Of a DNA stretch of 58,352 bases, positions 21,485 through 44,183 are shown piece by piece; the stretch's first letter is position 1; each line of letters starts with the position of its first letter. The stretch is from Kiritimatiellota bacterium (GTDB lineage: Bacteria; Verrucomicrobiota; Lentisphaeria; Oligosphaerales; JAADHN01). The notes under the pieces are model-generated. The model made no database searches, had not been told where the DNA came from, and saw only the letters and a program-made list of their open reading frames with translations. Location: contig JAADHN010000005.1 of the NCBI GenBank assembly GCA_013151865.1, positions 1-58,352 on the forward strand, in the 5' to 3' direction. Both the position numbers and the translations under genes were made by a program.

Positions 21485-23157
21485 TGAGAACCACACCATG
21501 TCATTGGCGGAGCGCTGGAGTGGCCGTGTTCGTCGCGGCCGCGGCGGCGCTCCTGCTCTCCGGTTGCACCACTTCGCGCCGGCTTGCGCAGCTCGATCGT
21601 CGCTGTCGAATGGTGCTCCAGGCCGTCCAGGAGCGCACTCGGGCCACGGCAGGACCGGAACGCCTGGACATCGACGCGTACGAAGCCGCTCAGTCAGGAC
21701 GCTACAACGGTCCACTGAAGTTGGACTTGCGCCGGACTCTGCAACTGGCTGCGCGCCACAGTCGAGAATACCAGACCGCCAAAGAGAACCTGTACGAAAG
21801 CGCCATCTCTCTGTATGTGGCGGCCCATGGCTTCGAATGGAACACGGGCAACAGTTTCGAGGCGACCTTGAAGCGCGACTTGAGTGGGCCTTCCACCTCC
21901 CTGAGCGGAGATGGTTCCCTGGACCTGAGCCGAAAGTTCGCCACCGGTGCGCGACTGAGCGTGAACCTGGCAATCACCACTCTGCGCTACCTGACGGGAG
22001 ACCGAAGCGTCAACATTACGTCGCTGGCCGGCTTGACCCTTCGGCAACCATTGCTGTCCGGACGCGGACGCTTGGTCGCGCGCGAGCCTTTGACGCAGGC
22101 CGAACGCAATGTGATTTACGCGCTGCGGGCTTACGTCCGCAAGCGCAAACAGCTCTCTTTCGACGTGGCCTCGAGCTACTACCAAGTCCTCTCCGCCCAA
22201 GACGCCGTAGACGTGGCCACGCGGAACTACGAGAACCTCAAGGCCTCCCGGGAACGTTCCGAGCTGATGGCCCAGGCCGGACGTCTGCCTGAATTCCAAG
22301 TGGACCAGGCCCGGCAAAATGAACTCAGCGCGGAATCGGCGCTGCTGACCCGCCGCAATGCACTGAAGGCGCGGAAGGACAGCCTGAAGCAGTTACTCGG
22401 GCTGCCGCTGTCGGTCCTGATCGAACTGGACCGTCGGGACTTGGGGCGCTTGGCCGCTTCGAAACTCCCCCCGCCCCCGGAGGCGTTCGCCGCCGCGGTG
22501 AGCGAAGCCCTGGACCATCGCCTGGATCTGGCCACGGTCCGCGACGAATTGGCCGATGCCGAGCGCGCGGTCAAGATTACGCGCGATGCCATGCGCACCA
22601 AACTCGATCTGGTCCTGGGCGCCAACGCCTCGAGCCCGACACGCAGCCAACTGACCGGCATCGAATGGGACCAAGGCGCCTATTCGGCGGGGGTCAGCGG
22701 CAGCCTGCCCCTGGATAAAACCGCCGAGACCGCCGCCTACCGTCGAGCCCTGATCCGCCTCGAACAACGCCGGCGCGCCGTGGCCCTGACTCGCGATCAA
22801 ATCGAAGCCGCCCTCCGGCGAGACTGGCGCGATTTGCGGACCGGGTCCGAAAACTACCGGATTCAGAAGGTCAGCGTAGACTTGGCCCGAAAACGGGTCG
22901 AAAGCACGGAATTGCTTTTCCAGGCCGGGCGGGTCAACATGCGAGACGTACTCGAGGCCAGGGACGCCCTCACGCGCACCGAGAACAACCTGACCCAGGC
23001 CCTCGTCAGTTATCGGCTGGACTGGTTGCGACTGCTGATCGACATGGAACGCCTGTCCGTGGATCCGGCCACCCTGTGGGCCGCGGACTTCGGCGTGACG
23101 CCGGCTCAAGCCGCGGGCCCGACCGGACCCGCGCCAAAGAATGGCGCACGGAAATGA
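21484..23157 (+). CDS. TolC-like outer-membrane efflux lipoprotein
   Basis: This is a 557-residue outer-membrane efflux channel protein. Residues 1-27 are a lipoprotein signal peptide with lipobox LLSGC. The rest shows the Ala/Leu/Arg-rich heptad pattern of the two OEP repeats (for example SYYQVLSAQDAVDVATRNYENLK and the mirrored C-terminal RVNMRDVLEARDALTRTENNL). It would form the outer-membrane duct of a tripartite export system together with the three genes downstream, with which it is tightly packed: its TGA overlaps the adaptor's ATG. The ATG at 21484 has no good ribosome site, but downstream GTG options would lack the basic residues needed in the signal peptide. The start falls at the edge of a repeated element. 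Confidence 0.88.
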   Translation: MRTTPCHWRSAGVAVFVAAAAALLLSGCTTSRRLAQLDRRCRMVLQAVQERTRATAGPERLDIDAYEAAQSGRYNGPLKLDLRRTLQLAARHSREYQTAKENLYESAISLYVAAHGFEWNTGNSFEATLKRDLSGPSTSLSGDGSLDLSRKFATGARLSVNLAITTLRYLTGDRSVNITSLAGLTLRQPLLSGRGRLVAREPLTQAERNVIYALRAYVRKRKQLSFDVASSYYQVLSAQDAVDVATRNYENLKASRERSELMAQAGRLPEFQVDQARQNELSAESALLTRRNALKARKDSLKQLLGLPLSVLIELDRRDLGRLAASKLPPPPEAFAAAVSEALDHRLDLATVRDELADAERAVKITRDAMRTKLDLVLGANASSPTRSQLTGIEWDQGAYSAGVSGSLPLDKTAETAAYRRALIRLEQRRRAVALTRDQIEAALRRDWRDLRTGSENYRIQKVSVDLARKRVESTELLFQAGRVNMRDVLEARDALTRTENNLTQALVSYRLDWLRLLIDMERLSVDPATLWAADFGVTPAQAAGPTGPAPKNGARK

Positions 23158-24734
23158 CGTATTTCCTTGATCGGAAACGAAATTGCAGCGACTCCCTCTC
23201 CCGTGACGACACCACCCCCCGTTGCCGTCGATGGCGCGGCGCCGCCCTGGTGGCCTTGCTGCTCGTTTGGGCCGTCGGATGCCGCCGGGCGGCAACGACC
23301 GACACCGGTCCGGAGACTTTCACGGTGCCCCGCGGCGACCTGCTGATCACGGTGACCGAGAGCGGCACGGTCGAAGCGGCGGAATCGGTCAGTATCAAGA
23401 ATGAGGTCAAGCGGAACATGCGCATTCTCGAGATGGTGGAGGAAGGGACCACCATCACCCCGGAAGACGTCAAGAACGGCAAGGTCTTGGTTCGGCTCGA
23501 CTCAAACGAACTGGAGGAGGAGTACGCCAACCGCCAGAACAACTTCGAGAGCGCCAAGGCGTCCCTGACCCAGGCCAAGGAGGGACTCGCCATTCAGCAG
23601 AGCGAAAACGACAGCCTCATCCGTACGGCGGAATTGAATTACACGTTCGCGTTGAACGACTTGAAAAAGTTGGTGGGCGACAAGCTCTCCATGCGCTATG
23701 CGGACAAAGTGCCGGAGAACATCACCCCACTGCTCGACGACCCCGACCTCGGCGGCCAGGCGCTGCAGGATCTGCGAAGTCGGCAGAGCAACATCGAACT
23801 GGACAAGGCACAGTTGTCCCGGGCGCGAACCAAGCTCGAATGGACCGAAAAGCTTTTGGGAAAAGGATACGTCACCAAGAACGACCGGGACGGGGATGCA
23901 TTCGAAGTCCGACGCTACGAACTCAAACTCGAAGAGGCACAAAGCGACTTGGACTTATACCGTCGGTACGAGTTTGTCAAAGTCTTTCAGAAGACTTGGT
24001 CGTCGGTTTTGGACACCCGCGAGAAGCTCGAACGGGCCAAGGCCATGGCTCGCTCGAAACTGGCTCAGGCCCAAGCCCAATACAACTCGCGCATGGCCAC
24101 CTTCAAGTACGAGGAGTCTCGCCTCGAACGCCTCAAACGCGACATCGAACACTGCACCATCCGTGCGCCACGTCCCGGGCTCGTCGTGCTCCAACAACCG
24201 CCCCGCTGGCAGAATTCCGGTCCACTCAAGGTCGGCAGCGACGTGAAACCCAACCAGGTGATCTTCCGGTTCCCGGACATTTCTCACATGGTGGTTAAAG
24301 TCAATATCCACGAATCCCAGATCGACCTGATCGAACTCGGCCAGAAGGCCATGATCAAAATCGACGCCGTACCGGGCCGATCCTTCCAAGGGAAAGTCGC
24401 CAAAAAAGCCATCTTGCCCAGCTCTCAGAATTCGTGGTTGAACCCGGACCTGAAATTGTATGCCGTGGAGGTGAGCATCGATGGCGAGAACAAAATCCTG
24501 CGCCCCGGCATGACCGCCACGGTGGAAATCCAAATCGAAAAACTGGCCGATGTGCTCTACGTACCGATCCAGGCAGTTCAGACGGACCCACGGGGCAAAC
24601 ACTATTGCAACCGGGTGGGCGGCGGGCGGGTCCCCGTCGAAATCGGCAAGCGCAATGAAGTCTTCGTGGTGGTTGAAAAGGGGCTGGCAAAAGGGAGTAA
24701 AATCCTCATGAGTCCCCCGGAACTGGGGCAATAG
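23154..24734 (+). CDS. Periplasmic adaptor (HlyD/MacA-type MFP) lipoprotein
   Basis: This is a membrane-fusion adaptor of 526 residues linking an inner-membrane ABC pump to the TolC-like channel. The start ATG overlaps the upstream stop (ATGA). A signal peptide with lipobox AVGC ends near residue 43. The beta-barrel/lipoyl strands (about 55-95) are split by a long coiled-coil hairpin (about 115-345, rich in Glu/Lys/Arg/Gln). Lipoyl strands (TIRAPRPGLVV) and the membrane-proximal domain (PGMTATVEIQIEKL) follow. The hairpin is longer than in canonical MacA (about 370 residues in total), suggesting a correspondingly long channel contact. Confidence 0.9.
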   Translation: MTYFLDRKRNCSDSLSRDDTTPRCRRWRGAALVALLLVWAVGCRRAATTDTGPETFTVPRGDLLITVTESGTVEAAESVSIKNEVKRNMRILEMVEEGTTITPEDVKNGKVLVRLDSNELEEEYANRQNNFESAKASLTQAKEGLAIQQSENDSLIRTAELNYTFALNDLKKLVGDKLSMRYADKVPENITPLLDDPDLGGQALQDLRSRQSNIELDKAQLSRARTKLEWTEKLLGKGYVTKNDRDGDAFEVRRYELKLEEAQSDLDLYRRYEFVKVFQKTWSSVLDTREKLERAKAMARSKLAQAQAQYNSRMATFKYEESRLERLKRDIEHCTIRAPRPGLVVLQQPPRWQNSGPLKVGSDVKPNQVIFRFPDISHMVVKVNIHESQIDLIELGQKAMIKIDAVPGRSFQGKVAKKAILPSSQNSWLNPDLKLYAVEVSIDGENKILRPGMTATVEIQIEKLADVLYVPIQAVQTDPRGKHYCNRVGGGRVPVEIGKRNEVFVVVEKGLAKGSKILMSPPELGQ

Positions 24735-24737
24735 ACC

Positions 24738-25484
24738 ATGCCGCCGACCAAGACAGAAAACGTTCCGGACCGACCCGGGACCGCCGGAACAAAGCCGCCC
24801 CCAGTGCTGCGGCTCGAAGGCGTCACCAAGGAATACGTGTTGGGCACGACTGCGGTCCCGGCCCTCCAGGGCGTCTCGTTCTCGTTGGATCCGGGCGAAT
24901 ACGTGGCCATCATGGGACCGTCCGGCTCCGGAAAGTCCACCCTGTTGAACCTGCTCGGATGCCTGGACACGGCGACGTCCGGCGCCTATTACCTGGACGG
25001 CGAAGACGTTTCGGGGCTGAACGACAGTGAACTCAGTCGGGTCCGCCGTGAGAAGATCGGGTTCGTCTTTCAGTCGTTCAACCTGATCCCGCAGATCAAC
25101 GTGCTCGAAAACATCGAAGTGCCTCTGTTTTACATGGGCTGGCACGAACGCGACAGCCGGGAACGCGCCACCGAACTTGCCCGCCGGGTCGGACTGGGCG
25201 ACCGCCTGAAGCACCGCCCCACCGAATTGTCCGGCGGCCAACGCCAGCGTGTCGCCATTGCACGCGCCCTGGCAAACGACCCACACCTCATTCTGGCCGA
25301 CGAACCCACGGGCAACCTGGATTCGCGAACCAGCGCCGAGATTATGGCAGTACTCGACGACCTGGTCAACCAGGGCCGCACCGTTGTGCTGGTGACTCAC
25401 GAAACCGATATTGCGCTCCATGCCCGGCGTGTCATCCAACTCGCCGACGGCCGGATCGTACGCGACGAGAGACGCCGCGCATGA
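24738..25484 (+). CDS. ABC transporter ATP-binding protein (MacB/LolD type)
   Basis: This is a 248-residue nucleotide-binding subunit. Walker [10 protein letters not shown] (about 60-68), the Q-loop [10 protein letters not shown], signature LSGGQRQR (about 163) and Walker [13 protein letters not shown] (about 184-195) are all intact. The sequence resembles the MacB/LolD subgroup, which powers mechanotransmission to FtsX-type permeases rather than substrate import. It starts 3 bp after the adaptor gene, and its end overlaps the permease gene by 4 bp (ATGA). The substrate of the complex (peptide, macrolide-like compound or lipoprotein) cannot be read from the sequence. Confidence 0.95.
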
Positions 25485-26752
25485 CGCTGACGTTCTTCAA
25501 AGTCAAACGCCTGACCCGACTCGGCCTCAAGAGCCTGGTCGAGCACAAGTTGCGCAGTTTTCTCACCGCGTTGGGCATCATTTTCGGAGTTGCCAGCGTC
25601 ATTTCGATGCTGGCCATCGGCGAAGGCGCCAGTTTCGAGGCGCGCGAGCAGATCCGGAGTCTCGGCAGCCGCAACATCATCATCCGGGCCCGGAAGCCGA
25701 CAGCATCGAGTTCGGCGCAGACCCGAACGAAACGGATGAGCATCTACGGACTGACTTACGACGACGCCCTCCGTATCCGCACGCTCTTCCCGAAGATTCG
25801 AGTGCTGGTCCCGGCGCGCGAAATCCCCGCCAAGGCCCGCCGCGAAGCCGTGAGGCTTCCGGTCCGGGTCGTCGGCACGATTCCCTGGTACATCCGAAAC
25901 GCCGGACTGCGCGTGATCGAAGGCCGGTTTATTAATGATGTGGACGTACGCTCGGCCGCCAACGTCTGCGTCCTGGGCGAAGCCGCGGCGCGAAAACTCT
26001 TCCCGCTGTCCCGGCCGGTCGGAAACCCGATCTACCTTGGAACCAACGCATACGTGGTGACCGGGGTGGTCCGCGGCCTGTCACAGGTGGGACGAGAAAA
26101 AGAGAAGAAAGTCGTGTACGAGGTGTATATTCCCATTTCAGCGGCCAAGAAACGGTTCGGCGAAATCACGTTGAAGCGGGAGACCGGCAGCTTCATGCTG
26201 GAGAAAGTCGAGCTGCACCAACTGACGCTGGCCGCCCCGAGCGAAGCGGCGGTCATCCCTTTGGCCAACGCCGTCCGGACCCTACTGCAGCATTTTCACA
26301 AGCAAAACGATTTCGAAATCACGGTCCCGCTCGAACTCCTGAAACAGGCCGAGGCCACCAAGCGCATTTTCAGCATCGTACTGGGCAGTATCTCGGCCAT
26401 CAGTCTGCTGGTGGGAGGCATCGGCATCATGAACATCATGCTGGCCAGCGTGACCGAGCGCACCCGGGAAATCGGCATCCGCCGGGCTCTCGGGGCGACC
26501 CGCTCGGATATTACGCTGCAGTTCCTGGCCGAAGCACTCATCCTCTCCCTGGCCGGTGGCCTGATCGGGATAGGATTGGGCGTTGCCATCCCCAAACTGG
26601 TATCGCATTTTGCCCGGCTCACAACCATCGTAACAACCAGCTCTCTGGTCTTGGCATTTGCCATTTCCGTCGCGACGGGCCTTGTCTTCGGCATCTATCC
26701 CGCAGTGCGCGCCGCGGCATTGTCTCCGATCCAGGCCCTCCGCCACGAGTGA
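25481..26752 (+). CDS. MacB-type ABC permease (FtsX family)
   Basis: This is a 423-residue inner-membrane permease. Helix 1 (about 25-45) is followed by a large periplasmic domain (about 50-290) and three C-terminal helices with the FtsX core: SLLVGGIGIMNIMLASVTER, then TREIGIRRALGA, the conserved coupling region. It is the last gene of a four-gene tripartite efflux operon with exactly the gene order channel-adaptor-ATPase-permease. In canonical MacB the ATPase is fused to the permease; here they are separate proteins. Confidence 0.93.
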   Translation: MTLTFFKVKRLTRLGLKSLVEHKLRSFLTALGIIFGVASVISMLAIGEGASFEAREQIRSLGSRNIIIRARKPTASSSAQTRTKRMSIYGLTYDDALRIRTLFPKIRVLVPAREIPAKARREAVRLPVRVVGTIPWYIRNAGLRVIEGRFINDVDVRSAANVCVLGEAAARKLFPLSRPVGNPIYLGTNAYVVTGVVRGLSQVGREKEKKVVYEVYIPISAAKKRFGEITLKRETGSFMLEKVELHQLTLAAPSEAAVIPLANAVRTLLQHFHKQNDFEITVPLELLKQAEATKRIFSIVLGSISAISLLVGGIGIMNIMLASVTERTREIGIRRALGATRSDITLQFLAEALILSLAGGLIGIGLGVAIPKLVSHFARLTTIVTTSSLVLAFAISVATGLVFGIYPAVRAAALSPIQALRHE

Positions 26753-36632: not shown

Positions 36633-38624
36633 TCAATACGAGAGCATCGATACGGACTTGGCTATCAAGGCGATGGCGACGGACGCCATGGCGACCAGTC
36701 CCATGCCGCAACCGTATCCGGCCAGGAGCACGGGCGCGTATTGTCGCCATTGTTTGCCGAACCGCTTCAACAGGTAGTACCGGCCGATCAGCGCCCCCAT
36801 CAGCTCCGGGATCACGGCGCCGGGCAACGCCGACCCGAGCCCACGCACAAATCCATACATCAACAGAGTGGGCAAACCGAGGGTGGAGAGCAGCAGGAAC
36901 ATGCCGAGACCGATCCCGAAGCCGATACTCACTACCAGTGGTTTGAGGGCTTCAAAGAAAATCGAACTTCCCGCCATGGTCGAACTCATCAACAGGCAAG
37001 TATTCAAGGCCTGCAATTCCCAGATTTTTTGCGTGAACGGATAATGGTCCGAAGGAATGGGCGCCAGCTTCCAAATGTAATGGGAAAAACAGATTGTCGA
37101 GATCAAAACGATCGGAATGACCACGATCTCCGTCTTGATCACGCTGCTTAACTTTGTGCCGGTCAGCTCGACCACTCGGAACCCGCGTACCGACCGTCCA
37201 TAATCGTGCAGTGGAATCGGGGCGAACCAAATGGCCACGCCTTTGTAGCCGCTCAGGATGAAGGCGGCCTCTCGAACAAGGGGAATGCTTACGGCTTGGC
37301 CGGCCAGTCCTTCGAGCTTGGCCGTGGCATACGAGATGAGCGGTGTGTAGATGAAGCCGTACCCGAGGAAAAACCACCAGGGAAACCCCGGAACCAACCA
37401 CGTGCTGATGGCAAGATAGCTGACCGTGGAAAAGAGGTATATGCCCAAGGCTACCCAGATCGGAATATCGCCCCGACGCGGGTTGCCCTTGCGCAAAATG
37501 CTCAAGGCCGTGCGGAAACTGGGCGGCCCCGACCCGACCGCGGCCGTCCTGCGGCGGCGGCCCCTCAGCAACGGCAGGACGATTTGTAGAATGCTGTAAG
37601 CGCAGATTGAAAACGTGATCCCGATCCCGAACGAGAGATAAAAGTCGATATTGTTGCTGAAAAGCGTGTCCACCACCTGCATCCCGGGTCGCCACGTCGT
37701 CAGGACCCCTGCATGGTAAAGCGCCGGATTAAGCGCCAGCTTGATCACAAAAGCCAGGGCCCCGCCGATCACGGCCCAGAACGGCAGCACCATGCCGGTG
37801 ATGACCAGTCCCAGCGAGAAAACCAAGTTGACCGGAGTCGCCGGAAAGATGTTCTGGGTCACATTGGTCAGATCCATCCAGGGGATGGGAATGAGCTGAA
37901 CCGGATGCGCCAGGAACGCCCCGGTCAAGGCCGGAATCCCCACATAGAAGAACCCGAAAGTCAGTCCCATGACCCCGCCGATCGAAAAAACCCGCCAGCG
38001 CCACCGGGTCCCGGTTTCCTTGGACTCGGCCAACGCCAGGACACCCTGTGCCCCGACGGGCGCCATGGGAAAAGGCAGTTTCTCCACATCGTTGGTCAAA
38101 CGGTACAGGACATACCCGAGCCCGAAGTTGTCGATTCGGGTGATGACGAACATCAACGCCATGAGCGCAATGGGGCCTACCCAATATCGCGTGAAAAAGG
38201 TGCGGCCTTGTTCGCGGATGATTTCGGCCTGCGGCGCAACCCAACTCGGGATGCCTTGCGCGATGCCCATGGCCATGGCGGCGGGCGATTGGACCAGGTA
38301 TTGTCGCCACAGCAGTCCCCAGAAGGGCGTGGCAAGTGTGATCCCGGTCATATAGAAGAGGATATAGACTTCCTGCTGTCGCAGGTTCCGCAAGGAACGT
38401 TTGGCGACCTCGGCGAACAGGATCACCGTGACCCAGCGGGCCGCCGGCCCCAGGCCCTGGCCGATGATCAACTGCAGGTACATCGAGCCCGGGACCATGA
38501 AAAAGGCCAGGAACAAGGCGCCCACGATCGTCTTGACCCCGAACCCGTCCTCGAACACCTCCGGCGGGTGCATCAGGTTCCGGAATTCCTGCAGTTCTTT
38601 GTCTTCCCGATACCGGTCGCTCAT
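36633..38624 (-). CDS. OPT-like polytopic membrane protein (DUF6785-type candidate)
   Basis: This is a 663-residue protein with about 14 hydrophobic segments and short loops. The segment around PFPMAPVGAQGVLALAE (about 195-210) and the pattern of paired helices recall the oligopeptide-transporter (OPT) superfamily and the DUF6785-type membrane proteins of PVC bacteria. I cannot confirm the family without a search. It is separated from the large permease gene upstream by only 84 bp on the same strand, suggesting a two-gene operon. A transport role is likely; substrate unknown. Confidence 0.7.
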   Translation of the reverse strand: MSDRYREDKELQEFRNLMHPPEVFEDGFGVKTIVGALFLAFFMVPGSMYLQLIIGQGLGPAARWVTVILFAEVAKRSLRNLRQQEVYILFYMTGITLATPFWGLLWRQYLVQSPAAMAMGIAQGIPSWVAPQAEIIREQGRTFFTRYWVGPIALMALMFVITRIDNFGLGYVLYRLTNDVEKLPFPMAPVGAQGVLALAESKETGTRWRWRVFSIGGVMGLTFGFFYVGIPALTGAFLAHPVQLIPIPWMDLTNVTQNIFPATPVNLVFSLGLVITGMVLPFWAVIGGALAFVIKLALNPALYHAGVLTTWRPGMQVVDTLFSNNIDFYLSFGIGITFSICAYSILQIVLPLLRGRRRRTAAVGSGPPSFRTALSILRKGNPRRGDIPIWVALGIYLFSTVSYLAISTWLVPGFPWWFFLGYGFIYTPLISYATAKLEGLAGQAVSIPLVREAAFILSGYKGVAIWFAPIPLHDYGRSVRGFRVVELTGTKLSSVIKTEIVVIPIVLISTICFSHYIWKLAPIPSDHYPFTQKIWELQALNTCLLMSSTMAGSSIFFEALKPLVVSIGFGIGLGMFLLLSTLGLPTLLMYGFVRGLGSALPGAVIPELMGALIGRYYLLKRFGKQWRQYAPVLLAGYGCGMGLVAMASVAIALIAKSVSMLSY

Positions 38625-38708: not shown

Positions 38709-41700
38709 TCACGCCAGCAACCGGGCGTCGGCGAACAGTGTGCTGCCCCGTTCATAGTACCGTTCCTGGGACTGGGTGTTCTGGGACCGCCAGCGAAGCA
38801 GGTGCTTGCGGAGCCCTTCCAGGAACGGCTGATTCGCCGTTTTCCAATTGGACTCTTCGCCGGCGGTCCGAGTCAGGTGCATGGTAATGCGATAAGCGCC
38901 GACCGCGTCATCGAAGTAGGCATAGACTTCCACCCGCTGGTTCACGCCCAGGTCGAAAGGCGCCAGGGAGACGTTGTACACCATGGCCCAGACGGGCTGT
39001 TCCGCTTCCTCGTTCCTTCCCCGCTCGCGGACCCGGCCGAGCCCGATGGGTTCCGCCACAAAGCGCCCGCTCGACGCCTCGGAATTCAATTCGAAATAGG
39101 AATACAGGTAGCCCAGCACCGCCAGGACCCGCTCTTCGTCGTAGCTGAAAGGAAAATCCACTTTCATCTCATCTCCCTCTGGAATGGGCAGCGCCCATCT
39201 TCGTTTTCCGCTCGGCACGGCGGCACGGGTGGCCAAAAGGGCCGGGTAAATGGCGCTGATCAAAACCGTGGCGATCGCCATGAAAATCACCATGACCACG
39301 GTCAACGACGAGTAATTCATGTTGACGGCACTCATCCAACCGAGCGCAACGATGATTTTGCTCAGTGACTGCCCCACCAGATACCCGGCCACGGCCCCGA
39401 CCACTCCGAAAACCAGGGATTCGGCCAGGAAGAATACGGCCACATGCGTCGGATTCAGGCCGATGGCGTTGTAAATGCCGATTTCTCGGCGGCGTTCCAT
39501 GACCGCCCCCAACATGGTGTTCAGAATAATCGTTGCGCCGATGATCAGCGGAATGATGATCCGCGCCATGCCCCCGACCTGCTTTCCCATGCTGGGGAGC
39601 AATCCGTAAGTCCCGGCTCGAATCACGGCGCTGCCTTTGTCCATCGGCACTTCTTCCCGCAATCCCAGGAGCAGTCGATTGTTGCTGAACCGGATTACCC
39701 GGTTCGCTTCCGACCAAGCGGTCCGGGCATCCGGAAAGCGCACGGCCAGGATCCGAGTCCCGGCCCCGCCCAACAAGCGGGCGAACCCCGTCGAGGTGAT
39801 CGCCACATCCTGGGCTCGCACCGGGGCGCTCCCGGCCGTGGGACTGGCCGAACCCTGGGCCGCGGCTTCGTGCATGGTCTGGGCCTGCTTCTGCGCTGCG
39901 GCAAGCGAGGCCGTCTGCTCGAGAGGCAGCAACGGAACGCCCGCAATGTCCTTGATCGCCTCGAAGCGTTCGTCGTCCACCAACCCGACGACTTTCAATT
40001 CCACCCCGTTCAGCACCAACCGGGCGGTTCCGAGGTTCTCCGGGGTGATGTCCACGAACGATGCGGCCCGGACCGACAACACCAGTTCGGCCGCATCGTC
40101 CCCGGACAGCCACCGTCCCGCCACCAGGGGAATGGACTGCACAAAACCGTCTTCGGCCTTTTCGAGCCCCAACATCACTTTGGCTTTCAGCTCCTTGTCC
40201 GATCCTGGACGGGTCAATTCGTACGGCATGTACCCCCCGTATTGATTCAAACGCTGGGCCCAGACTCGTGAGACCACCTTCCCGTGTTCGGCGAACAGAG
40301 CGCGCAAACTCCGGACCACAGTCCGATCCAAGGCGGCAAACCCGGGGTTCGTGTATAGATACCCATCGTACGGCGGCGATTCGGGTAAGCGCGCCCGAGC
40401 CGGGCGTGCACTTTCGGTCACGCTGGTAAAGGACAGCATGGTAAAGGTCACCAACACCACGGTGATGCAGGTCAAACCCGTGCGAACCCGGCGGCGCTTC
40501 ATGTTGTTCACTCCCACCGAAAACGCCACCCCCGCCAAGCGTGAACGCGACGCATCGGAAGAGTCGGTGTCCGTGAATTGGTTCAGCACCTTGGCCATTT
40601 CCTCGTCGAACCGGGCATAGAGGATCCAGCTCACGAACAAGGCCAGCCCGAGCATCACGAAGGCAATCAGAACGATGGTCGGAGCATGAGTCAACTGAAA
40701 AACCGGATGCACGGTCCGCAACCACAGGAACGTGACCGCGAACACGCCGGCGAACCAAGTGATCTGGCGGGTCACCTGTGTGAAGGGACAAGTCAGTTTC
40801 ATCACGAAAAAACAAAATGGAATGACCAGGCCGAGGAAGATCACAACCGCTTTGACCATGTCGTTCGAAGTGGCGAGAATAGCCGGGTAGGCCCGATACT
40901 CGACCCCAAGCGCCTCGGTGGCGCGGTCGAGGAACTGTTGCATGCGCCCGCGCTTGCGCAACTGCGCGGCTTGGTCGAGCAGGCGCCCGGCTTCCGTGTG
41001 CAGCTCTCGGGCCAGTGCATTGTGCACCCCCTTGCTCTCGAGTCGGTTGAGTCGATCTTCATCCAGCACCCATGTATCGTGAGCCGTGGCATAGCGCAGG
41101 GCCTGGGCCGGCAGTTCCCCCTGGACATAACCGGCCCCGGTCGGATGCTCCGGAGAACTATTCAGCAGCAATCCACGCCCCAGGCGCAGTTTGACCGGCA
41201 AATCAGGCGGGACGAAGATGGCGGCCACGCCGCCCGCTACGGTATGGAGATATTTTTTCGTGGCTCCGCGGTTCGGACTGACGCCCGACAGTCCGAAACT
41301 CATGGGCGTACTTTCCTGGAGCGCGTCGATCACGTCGATGCTGCGGACCGGCTCGAACGTCAGGGGTTCGATCAGTCCCACAAGATCGTATTTGACACAT
41401 GGAAACGTCGCCAGGATACGTTCCGTCACGGCCAGCGAACTGCCCAAGTTCGAAGAAAAACGCGTCTCCATGCGTCCCAGGTCGAGCGCGGCCGCAATGC
41501 GTCCTTCCCGGTCGAACCCGAAAACTTCCGAGTAGTAACCGGCGCCGCGCCGCAGCATATGCGCCACCGCACTGCCGCGCCCGTCGCTCAACACGGGGTA
41601 GTTCATGTTCACATCGCCGCGGACCGGTTCCCAAAACGCTCCCTGAGCCAGGACACGCCACGGCCGGAGGACGACCAGAGCATCCGAGACGGGCAGCTTG

Positions 41701-43637
41701 GGGACGGTGAGAGAAAAAGCATCCACTTTGCGGACCAACATTCGCGTCATGGCGCACATGTCGCGTCCGGGGACCTTGTACCCCTCGGCCAGCACGCCGC
41801 GGTCGAAGAGCGCGGGCAGGTAGGCCTCGAGAAAAGTCCCAATGCGCTCTACGTTCCGGCGGGGCAAGTGCTCGATATCGTCCAACGTGGTGTAGCGGTA
41901 TCGGCGGATATCCTGGACCGTAAGCAATGCCACCGAAGGCACTAACGCCTGGTTTCCGAACAACGTCGGCGTGGCAACGGGCTCGGCAAGATGATTCGAC
42001 CAGGCAACCCCGGCATTGTTCAAGATCGTGTCTTCGAGTCGGTTCGAGATACCTCGCTCCTCCGAGACCGACTCGGCCAAGCGGAGGGTGTCCCGCGAGA
42101 ATTTGACCACCGCCTTGACCAGGTCCGGGTAGTCGTAGGTCTGCATGTGGCTCTGATTGAAAAACCCGACCCGATCATTGTGGAACGAACAATCAAGAAA
42201 GCAGTACAGGACCGACTGCTTGCCGTTCAGCAGTTCCCGAAGCTCCCGGTTGCTCCGGTTTTCGGTCAAGTCCGCCCGGATCCCGGTGGCTGCCGTCCGA
42301 GCGTTCCGAACCACCTCGTCGAAAGCCGCCTGCAGTCGGGCGCGCTCGGGTCCGCTCAGCTTCGCGAACGCAGTGCGGCGCCCGAACTTGTTGAAAAGGC
42401 TGACCAAGCGCACCCAAACGTCGCCGTCGGCCCGAATCCGCCGCACATTCTTCTTGATCGCAGCGCGCCGTTCCGGGTCGGTTTCCCGTCGCAGGGCCTG
42501 GAGGAGGTGGGCGATGTTCTGACGCCCCTCGTTCAACCGTGTCGTCAGCAACTCCTGGATCGGTTTGCGCAGTTCCGTAGTCTTGCCCGCCACGGTCGAG
42601 GTTTCTGTCCGGACCCTCTCGACGAGGTCCGCAGACAGAGTCCGGCGGTACGCCTCGAGTTTGTACATCTCGGTGGCGAGTTCATCTTCCAACCCCTTGT
42701 CTTCCTCCTCGAGCACCGATTCCGGCGCGAACGTATACCAAGCATACGCCCGCGCCCCGGCCATTCCGGATCGGTGGGCATTCACGACCGAGAAAACCAC
42801 CGTTCTGGAAACCGGGCGTGCTGCGACGGCCCGAAAAACACGGAGAAAAATCGCCAGGTTCGCCGCGGCCTCGGCCCCTGGATCGACGCCGGGACAGATC
42901 GAGGAACTGTCAAGGGCCACCTGGAAATGCACCACCTCGTCGGCGTTCGACGTACCCGGAATAATGGCCCAGTAGTCGTCCAACGCGATACGCTGCCATC
43001 GTCTCCGATCCGCTCGGAGTCGAACCTGCGGCGCCGGGAGCCGACGCGCCAAGTCGCGGACCGCTGCAACCGCCTCTCGAGGGACGAGAAAGCGTGGAAT
43101 CGTGAGAGGGGCATCCACCTGCTTGCAGCGCGCCTGGTACGCCGATGTTTCGGCCGGCGCCAAAAAAAGCACCACACTCGCACCTGATTGGATCACGCTC
43201 AGCCAATTCCGCTCGCAGTCGAATTCCATCACGGCCGCAGCGCCCTGGAGCTGGCGTGATCTGAGGTCCTCGGGTTCGCCCCGGCCGGCGTATACCAGCC
43301 GCCCCTCCCAGCCCGCCTCGGGCAGGTTGCCCGGGTCGGCCAGGTTCGCTCGCAGCGGCAGGATCGGCCAGCGTCGTTTCCCGACGGACAGTTCGCCTCG
43401 CCCCGGCGACAGCACCGGATGCCGGAACCGAATCGTGCCGGTTTCGGGCGCCAGTTTCACAAACTCCGCAGCCACGTACCGGGCCGCGGCGGCGTTTCCC
43501 GGGTACCCTGCGGAACGTTCCGGAAAGCGCCGGCAAAGCGCTGCGGCTTCGTCGTACACAGTTCCGGCTTCGGAGCCGGTCGCTGTCGCAGCGATCATCA
43601 GGAACGCCAGGACACTTGCCAAAACCGATGTCATCAT
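38709..43637 (-). CDS. Giant M28-peptidase-like / FtsX permease fusion
   Basis: This protein has 1642 residues. A signal peptide (MMTSVLASVLAFLMIAATA) leads into an M28/PA-like ectodomain (about 25-360). The metal site appears degraded: where M28 enzymes have an HxD and a GADDN-type motif, this has VALDSSS and PGVDPGAEAAANL (about 232-255). A helical/coiled region and a second soluble region follow, then three helices (about 925-1005). The FtsX/MacB-type permease core comes next, with a helix near 1052, a periplasmic domain, and IIIPLIIGATIILN then ERRREIGIYNAIGLNPTHV near 1365-1400. A C-terminal soluble domain covers about 1485-1642. No ATPase gene is adjacent. The start is the double ATG at 43634-43637; no strong ribosome site is visible. 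Confidence 0.82.
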   Translation of the reverse strand: MMTSVLASVLAFLMIAATATGSEAGTVYDEAAALCRRFPERSAGYPGNAAAARYVAAEFVKLAPETGTIRFRHPVLSPGRGELSVGKRRWPILPLRANLADPGNLPEAGWEGRLVYAGRGEPEDLRSRQLQGAAAVMEFDCERNWLSVIQSGASVVLFLAPAETSAYQARCKQVDAPLTIPRFLVPREAVAAVRDLARRLPAPQVRLRADRRRWQRIALDDYWAIIPGTSNADEVVHFQVALDSSSICPGVDPGAEAAANLAIFLRVFRAVAARPVSRTVVFSVVNAHRSGMAGARAYAWYTFAPESVLEEEDKGLEDELATEMYKLEAYRRTLSADLVERVRTETSTVAGKTTELRKPIQELLTTRLNEGRQNIAHLLQALRRETDPERRAAIKKNVRRIRADGDVWVRLVSLFNKFGRRTAFAKLSGPERARLQAAFDEVVRNARTAATGIRADLTENRSNRELRELLNGKQSVLYCFLDCSFHNDRVGFFNQSHMQTYDYPDLVKAVVKFSRDTLRLAESVSEERGISNRLEDTILNNAGVAWSNHLAEPVATPTLFGNQALVPSVALLTVQDIRRYRYTTLDDIEHLPRRNVERIGTFLEAYLPALFDRGVLAEGYKVPGRDMCAMTRMLVRKVDAFSLTVPKLPVSDALVVLRPWRVLAQGAFWEPVRGDVNMNYPVLSDGRGSAVAHMLRRGAGYYSEVFGFDREGRIAAALDLGRMETRFSSNLGSSLAVTERILATFPCVKYDLVGLIEPLTFEPVRSIDVIDALQESTPMSFGLSGVSPNRGATKKYLHTVAGGVAAIFVPPDLPVKLRLGRGLLLNSSPEHPTGAGYVQGELPAQALRYATAHDTWVLDEDRLNRLESKGVHNALARELHTEAGRLLDQAAQLRKRGRMQQFLDRATEALGVEYRAYPAILATSNDMVKAVVIFLGLVIPFCFFVMKLTCPFTQVTRQITWFAGVFAVTFLWLRTVHPVFQLTHAPTIVLIAFVMLGLALFVSWILYARFDEEMAKVLNQFTDTDSSDASRSRLAGVAFSVGVNNMKRRRVRTGLTCITVVLVTFTMLSFTSVTESARPARARLPESPPYDGYLYTNPGFAALDRTVVRSLRALFAEHGKVVSRVWAQRLNQYGGYMPYELTRPGSDKELKAKVMLGLEKAEDGFVQSIPLVAGRWLSGDDAAELVLSVRAASFVDITPENLGTARLVLNGVELKVVGLVDDERFEAIKDIAGVPLLPLEQTASLAAAQKQAQTMHEAAAQGSASPTAGSAPVRAQDVAITSTGFARLLGGAGTRILAVRFPDARTAWSEANRVIRFSNNRLLLGLREEVPMDKGSAVIRAGTYGLLPSMGKQVGGMARIIIPLIIGATIILNTMLGAVMERRREIGIYNAIGLNPTHVAVFFLAESLVFGVVGAVAGYLVGQSLSKIIVALGWMSAVNMNYSSLTVVMVIFMAIATVLISAIYPALLATRAAVPSGKRRWALPIPEGDEMKVDFPFSYDEERVLAVLGYLYSYFELNSEASSGRFVAEPIGLGRVRERGRNEEAEQPVWAMVYNVSLAPFDLGVNQRVEVYAYFDDAVGAYRITMHLTRTAGEESNWKTANQPFLEGLRKHLLRWRSQNTQSQERYYERGSTLFADARLLA

Positions 43638-43873: not shown

Positions 43874-44183
43874 CCCGGTCTGAAAATCTGCCCTTGAAGA
43901 CCGAAATCACGATCACCGTATTGCCTGTGAAAAACTCGACGCCGACCGCCAGGATGAAACCGAGGCAGAACAGCGGACCTCCCGGAAGTCTTGCCGCACC
44001 GACCCGCAGCGCGTCGGCTCCGGCGCCCACCGTCGAGGCAAAAACCGCGTCAAACAAGACAAGCACGCCGTTCCCCCGCGCGAGGACGAACGCGCGGGAG
44101 ACAGCCATACGGGTCTGGATCACGTCTGCATCGGCGATCCACTCCAGGATTTCGGCCGGCGCTCGCCCCCCCTCCCGACACAT
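43874..44183 (-). pseudogene. N-terminal remnant of a formate/nitrite transporter (FNT) family protein
   Basis: About 103 residues read like the start of an FNT channel: PAEILEWIADADV, then ASTVGAGADALRVGAARL, GFILAVGVEFFTGNT and VIVISVFKGRFSDR. FNT proteins have GAELFTGN at exactly this point after their second helix. The homology then stops; the remaining four helices are missing in every frame. The frame stays open into the downstream permease gene, so no stop separates them, but the bridging residues are not FNT-like. A real FNT protein is about 270 residues. Confidence 0.6.

Follow-up and report, generated by a model that had tools for sequence, protein, structure and literature searches.

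The gene that we call GIANT encodes what is, with a probability of about 0.6, the large permease subunit of a multi-component Type VII ABC envelope machine that would have recruited proteins of the OPT superfamily, as judged from sequence comparisons and structural models. It lies on a 58,352-nucleotide stretch of DNA from a Kiritimatiellota bacterium (contig JAADHN010000005.1), termed here the window, and is followed on the same strand, after a gap of 84 bp, by the membrane protein gene OPTB. The multi-gene machine is apparently undescribed so far, and a search of the open-access literature retrieved no paper that deals with DUF6785/DUF6784 or with an FtsX-OPT system. The features of both genes are as follows.

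38709..43637, minus strand: GIANT gene, 1642 codons encoding 1642 aa, by HMM, profile and model evidence
43578..43637, minus strand: signal peptide or N-terminal membrane anchor of GIANT, residues 1-20, by hydropathy and a model helix
41802..43559, minus strand: PA plus M28-like domain of GIANT with metal ligands lost, residues 27-612
42228..42725, minus strand: helical insertion inside the M28-like domain, about residues 305-470, by model secondary structure
41148..41765, minus strand: beta-rich domain of GIANT, about residues 625-830
40569..41105, minus strand: helical stalk plus further transmembrane helices ahead of the FtsX core, about residues 845-1023
39213..40475, minus strand: MacB/LolC-type FtsX core of GIANT, about residues 1055-1475
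38712..39170, minus strand: conserved C-terminal domain of GIANT, residues 1490-1642
36633..38624, minus strand: OPTB, membrane protein of OPT/YSL fold, 663 aa

The original prediction had read GIANT as one gene of 1642 residues, and this frame was confirmed, the domains following in the order PA/pseudo-M28 ectodomain, beta domain, helical stalk, extra transmembrane helices, FtsX core and C-terminal domain. Translation probably starts at the ATG at 43637 with a signal-like N-terminus (hydropathy 2.04 over residues 1-19; a helix in the model); the frame stays open to an upstream ATG at 44183, a less likely start. The permease core was also borne out, by a Pfam match to FtsX (PF02687, E=2.7e-13, residues 1361-1471) and by matches of a profile of the C-terminal half to MacB (1.3e-19) and LolC (1.8e-13) in PDB. 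The predicted separate C-terminal domain is present, conserved and outside known families: its pattern is LAPFDLGV...W..N..FL..LR..LL.WR, of which LAPFDLGV is kept across all layouts, and its 150 residues matched no PDB chain and no Pfam family. By analogy with MacB-like topology this domain would be cytosolic. The "long helical ectodomain" described earlier needs correction, being mainly a helical insertion in the M28 domain, with the beta-rich domain, which had no match in Pfam or PDB profile searches, and a helical stalk following it.

An M28/PA domain with lost metal-binding residues had been proposed for the ectodomain, and this proposal held. The single GIANT sequence matched M28 with E=0.019, below the Pfam cut-off, while a profile of 25 homologues retrieved PA-M28 aminopeptidases in PDB at 1.5e-20, with weaker matches to transferrin receptor (2.8e-8) and nicastrin (1.8e-9); thus significant matches were obtained for both M28 and FtsX. 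The AlphaFold model, which covers residues 1-1060, is confident (pLDDT 83.5, pTM 0.81), and M28 aminopeptidases were its best fold in Foldseek (2.5e-14). Among 103 GIANT homologues the first metal His and the bridging Asp are each kept in 4, the catalytic Glu in 2, and the ligand Glu and the last His in none, which rules out an active M28 peptidase. Asp243 and Asp586, which from their motif positions do not appear to be metal ligands themselves, are kept in 102 of the 103, and residue 288 (window 42774-42776), which aligns with the M28 catalytic Glu, is His in 66. This His could form a putative repurposed binding site together with the two Asp. Judged from the alignment, the metallopeptidase site is dead, yet not drifting freely.

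For OPTB, the only significant PDB matches of the model in Foldseek were to barley Yellow Stripe 1 (E=1.1e-10, TM 0.62-0.69), in agreement with the OPT-like gene predicted at this spacing and on this strand. OPT/YSL proteins are transporters of the plant iron-uptake type. Several OPTB orthologues exceed the Pfam OPT cut-off (best 7.6e-11); the window protein itself has no Pfam match and, taken alone, the OPTB profile is modestly similar to OPT (hhalign 54%). A search of the OPTB profile against PDB sequences gave nothing, so the assignment rests on the fold and on the orthologue Pfam matches. DUF6785 proteins matched canonical OPT at 94.9% (4e-8) and OPTB at 87.6% in hhalign. Given fold, orthologue Pfam matches and profile matches, OPTB and DUF6785 are best seen as OPT-superfamily proteins, OPTB chiefly by fold.

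The conservation of the neighbourhood was studied in two sets of loci, most of the genomes compared being metagenome assemblies. In the first, 45 loci from the same order as the window genome, OPTB comes next after GIANT in 44, and the one remaining locus stops at a contig edge; this is the tightest-linked pair, and ATPase genes lie nearby in 39 of the 45. Of 60 related genomes, 32 have OPTB, and full-type GIANT occurs in the same 32 plus one at a contig end. The second set comprised the best 80 of more than 580 relatives in genome_contigs, ranked by identity/similarity, which belong mainly to Desulfobacterota, with Planctomycetota, Lentisphaerae and Kiritimatiellae records as well. Taking as adequately sequenced those with at least 9 kb upstream left 55 loci among these best 80, again dominated by Desulfobacterota; GIANT is present in 53, an ABC ATPase in 53, a short FtsX in 51 and DUF6785 in 54, and all four occur together in 50. 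Thus the pairing of GIANT with the OPT-like gene, first proposed from one genome, recurs as direct adjacency in 53 of these 55 loci, most of them from other phyla. The usual companions are one or two MacB/LolD-type ATPases, the short FtsX and DUF6785/6784; a PqqD-like protein is often encoded too, and an unnamed product of about 300 aa recurs. No HlyD homologue was found near GIANT in the 45 loci of the order or in the 80 best of more than 580 relatives, and no OPTB relative was found on plasmids.

The system occurs in at least three bacterial phyla, although its distribution is patchy, since only 10 of 96 genomes in a drawn sample of the phylum have OPTB. Relatives are present in the named isolates Oligosphaera ethanolica DSM 24202, Desulfatibacillum alkenivorans and Desulforhopalus singaporensis, and the system can therefore be tested. 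The OPT pair may also act independently, because in four Desulfobacteraceae loci DUF6785-OPTB persists with neither GIANT nor ABC close by; in these loci (L143:1-9927, L135, L164 and L171) BamA-like and arginase genes replace ABC-GIANT upstream of the pair, and L143 has a TamB-like gene upstream as well.

The statement that GIANT has no adjacent ATP-binding subunit is correct for the window contig, but neither for the family, as the counts above show, nor for the genome. A search for a MacB/LolD-type ATPase, suggested at the outset, was successful, the genes being mostly in cis and, in the window genome, on contig C44, where an orthologous ABC-FtsX-ABC block lies next to a PqqD-like gene. The three proteins of the block are 71, 55 and 74% identical to those of a planctomycete cis module. 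Sister systems of the window copy all carry ABC-FtsX-ABC in cis: the planctomycete loci L114 and L121, closest to it, have the order ABC-FtsX-ABC-GIANT-OPTB, and L124, also close, has GIANT-OPTB-DUF6785-ABC-FtsX-ABC. In phylogenetic trees the window OPTB (0.93) and GIANT (1.00) group with L114, L121, L124 and L169; the C44 FtsX (1.00) and one C44 ABC (0.97) group with L114, L121 and L124; DUF6785 on C167/C135 groups with L121, L124 and L169 (1.00). The other C44 ABC gene (8595 in L233) has no small informative clade. The genome holds five GIANT-OPTB pairs and as many FtsX-ABC modules, of which three lie in cis and two elsewhere, and the second separated GIANT (C12a) and its FtsX-ABC (C157) both group with L073. 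By sequence comparison the operon is thus split in this genome, with GIANT-OPTB apart from ABC-FtsX-ABC-PqqD and DUF6785. Because the partners are on other contigs and the trees are congruent, the absence of an adjacent ATPase is put down to a local rearrangement. Contamination is unlikely to have caused the split, C44 and C116 being alike in tetranucleotide profile (r=0.987) and GC.

Other observations concern the same genome. Directly upstream of GIANT lies a truncated formate/nitrite transporter-like fragment (43884-44153, minus strand; PF01226, E=3.2e-7, positions 1-92 of 240, below the cut-off), which looks like a rearrangement remnant. Two of the five GIANT copies (L010:2409-7215 and L011:7760-12660) are split over two overlapping frames by frameshifts, either real or from assembly. 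Many more DUF6785-type genes are found on contigs C167, C135, C101, C169, C34, C14, C35 and C43, and beside those on C167 and C135 there are no GIANT, OPTB or ABC relatives. The window also contains a tripartite-pump type set of HlyD, ABC ATPase and MacB-like permease genes (23076-26752, plus strand), 12 kb from GIANT; it is an unlikely partner, being MacAB-like, on the opposite strand and with an ATPase that resembles the cognate ones less (47% versus 70% for C44).

Two readings of the isolated window pair were weighed against this background. It could be a decaying, relocated operon fragment without function, as its separation from the partner genes and the transporter remnant, a sign of rearrangement, might suggest; however, both genes are intact over their full length, OPTB and GIANT are 62% and 41% identical to their planctomycete homologues and the partners are kept elsewhere in the genome, which makes decay improbable. 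The original prediction instead suggested an ATPase-independent receptor or sensor made of GIANT and OPTB alone. Since neither the ATPase nor DUF6785 is encoded in cis, the window pair could indeed work alone, and it is the tightest-linked pair; nevertheless the cognate module on C44, the cis modules of all sister systems and the match of five pairs with five modules render this reading very improbable. The ATPases and second FtsX in the operons of relatives, together with the trans module, argue strongly against an ATPase-less system, and the C44 ATPases are the presumed motor of the window GIANT.

We therefore return to the multi-component machine. GIANT and the short FtsX, which lacks a large periplasmic domain, would form a heterodimeric permease, assembled with one or two MacB/LolD-type ATPases, OPTB, DUF6785/6784 and an accessory PqqD-like protein; in the window genome, GIANT-OPTB would be served in trans by the C44 ABC-FtsX-ABC-PqqD module. 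ATP binding and hydrolysis would be transmitted through the FtsX helices and the stalk to the periplasmic head, the dead PA/M28 fold serving as a binding or docking platform and the OPT-fold pair as a membrane path or substrate-binding site. The analysis shows the domains, the lost ligands, the OPT fold, the conserved neighbourhood, the congruent trees and the split operon; we infer the physical complex, its coupling to ATP, its use of the C44 module, its direction and its substrate. GIANT may also sense or gate a ligand. Peptides or peptide complexes are handled by the M28, PqqD and OPT folds alike, so that a peptide- or chelate-like substrate is slightly favoured over a lipid or glycolipid. 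By analogy with what is established for Type VII ABC transporters, which typically act at the periplasmic side and take their function from a partner (PMC12646458), ATP-driven mechanotransmission most likely works the pseudo-peptidase head and the OPT-fold subunits.

A rather unlikely alternative is a machine for envelope lipids, lipoproteins or glycolipids. Its FtsX pair would pull a membrane-anchored molecule out of the membrane, as in LolCDE or YbbAP-TesA, and pass it to the pseudo-M28 head, with the OPT fold as flippase or scaffold. All host groups are taken as double-membraned, which counts for it, as do the BamA and TamB-like genes beside DUF6785-OPTB in Desulfobacteraceae. Envelope genes next to the system in some Desulfobacterota suggest lipids or glycans. 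Some Desulfobacterota loci have an upstream GT28-type glycosyltransferase and a DUF2334 protein, but these genes occur in 15-17 of the 80 loci (best 80 of more than 580) and are absent from the Planctomycetota and Lentisphaerae loci among them; moreover, lipid transport by OPT proteins is not known. What Type VII ABC systems extract is mostly lipid-like (PMC12646458), which again speaks for it.

The proposal has a bearing on several protein families. DUF6785/DUF6784 and the presumably cytosolic new domain of GIANT gain a testable role. The known OPT proteins are secondary (proton-coupled) transporters, and we know of no description of their energy coupling with Type VII ABC systems; a conserved operon that joins both suggests a novel energy coupling. 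We tentatively consider that a Type VII ABC motor drives the OPT-fold pair through the giant permease, with the dead peptidase as substrate-binding head; such an ATP-powered OPT system would, if true, be a new transporter class in at least three phyla.

Type VII ABC proteins are known as mechanotransmitters. GIANT shares with the MacB/LolCDE/FtsEX-like systems the FtsX core with its MacB-like periplasmic core, dedicated LolD/MacB-type ATPases (in cis at most loci, presumably in trans on C44 for the window copy) and a periplasmic partner domain. It differs from them in the fused pseudo-PA/M28 head, the extra transmembrane helices before the FtsX core, the conserved, probably cytosolic C-terminal domain and the two OPT-superfamily partners, and from MacAB-like tripartite pumps in having no adjoining HlyD/MacA adaptor at its loci. 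OPTB resembles the OPT/YSL family (barley Yellow Stripe 1; PF03169) in fold, in a partial profile match and in the LPFP motif region, but its sequence is distant and its gene keeps company with those of an ABC motor and of another OPT-superfamily protein, DUF6785/6784. In both sequence and structure the ectodomain comes closest to YwaD-type PA-M28 aminopeptidases, but it lacks their catalytic and metal residues and has a helical insertion. Nicastrin, nicalin and transferrin receptor are, like GIANT, membrane proteins with an M28 or PA-M28 fold and a lost metal site, the first two being parts of larger complexes, whereas GIANT is bacterial and fused to an ABC permease; it may thus represent a bacterial counterpart to the nicastrin-like dead peptidases in membrane complexes.
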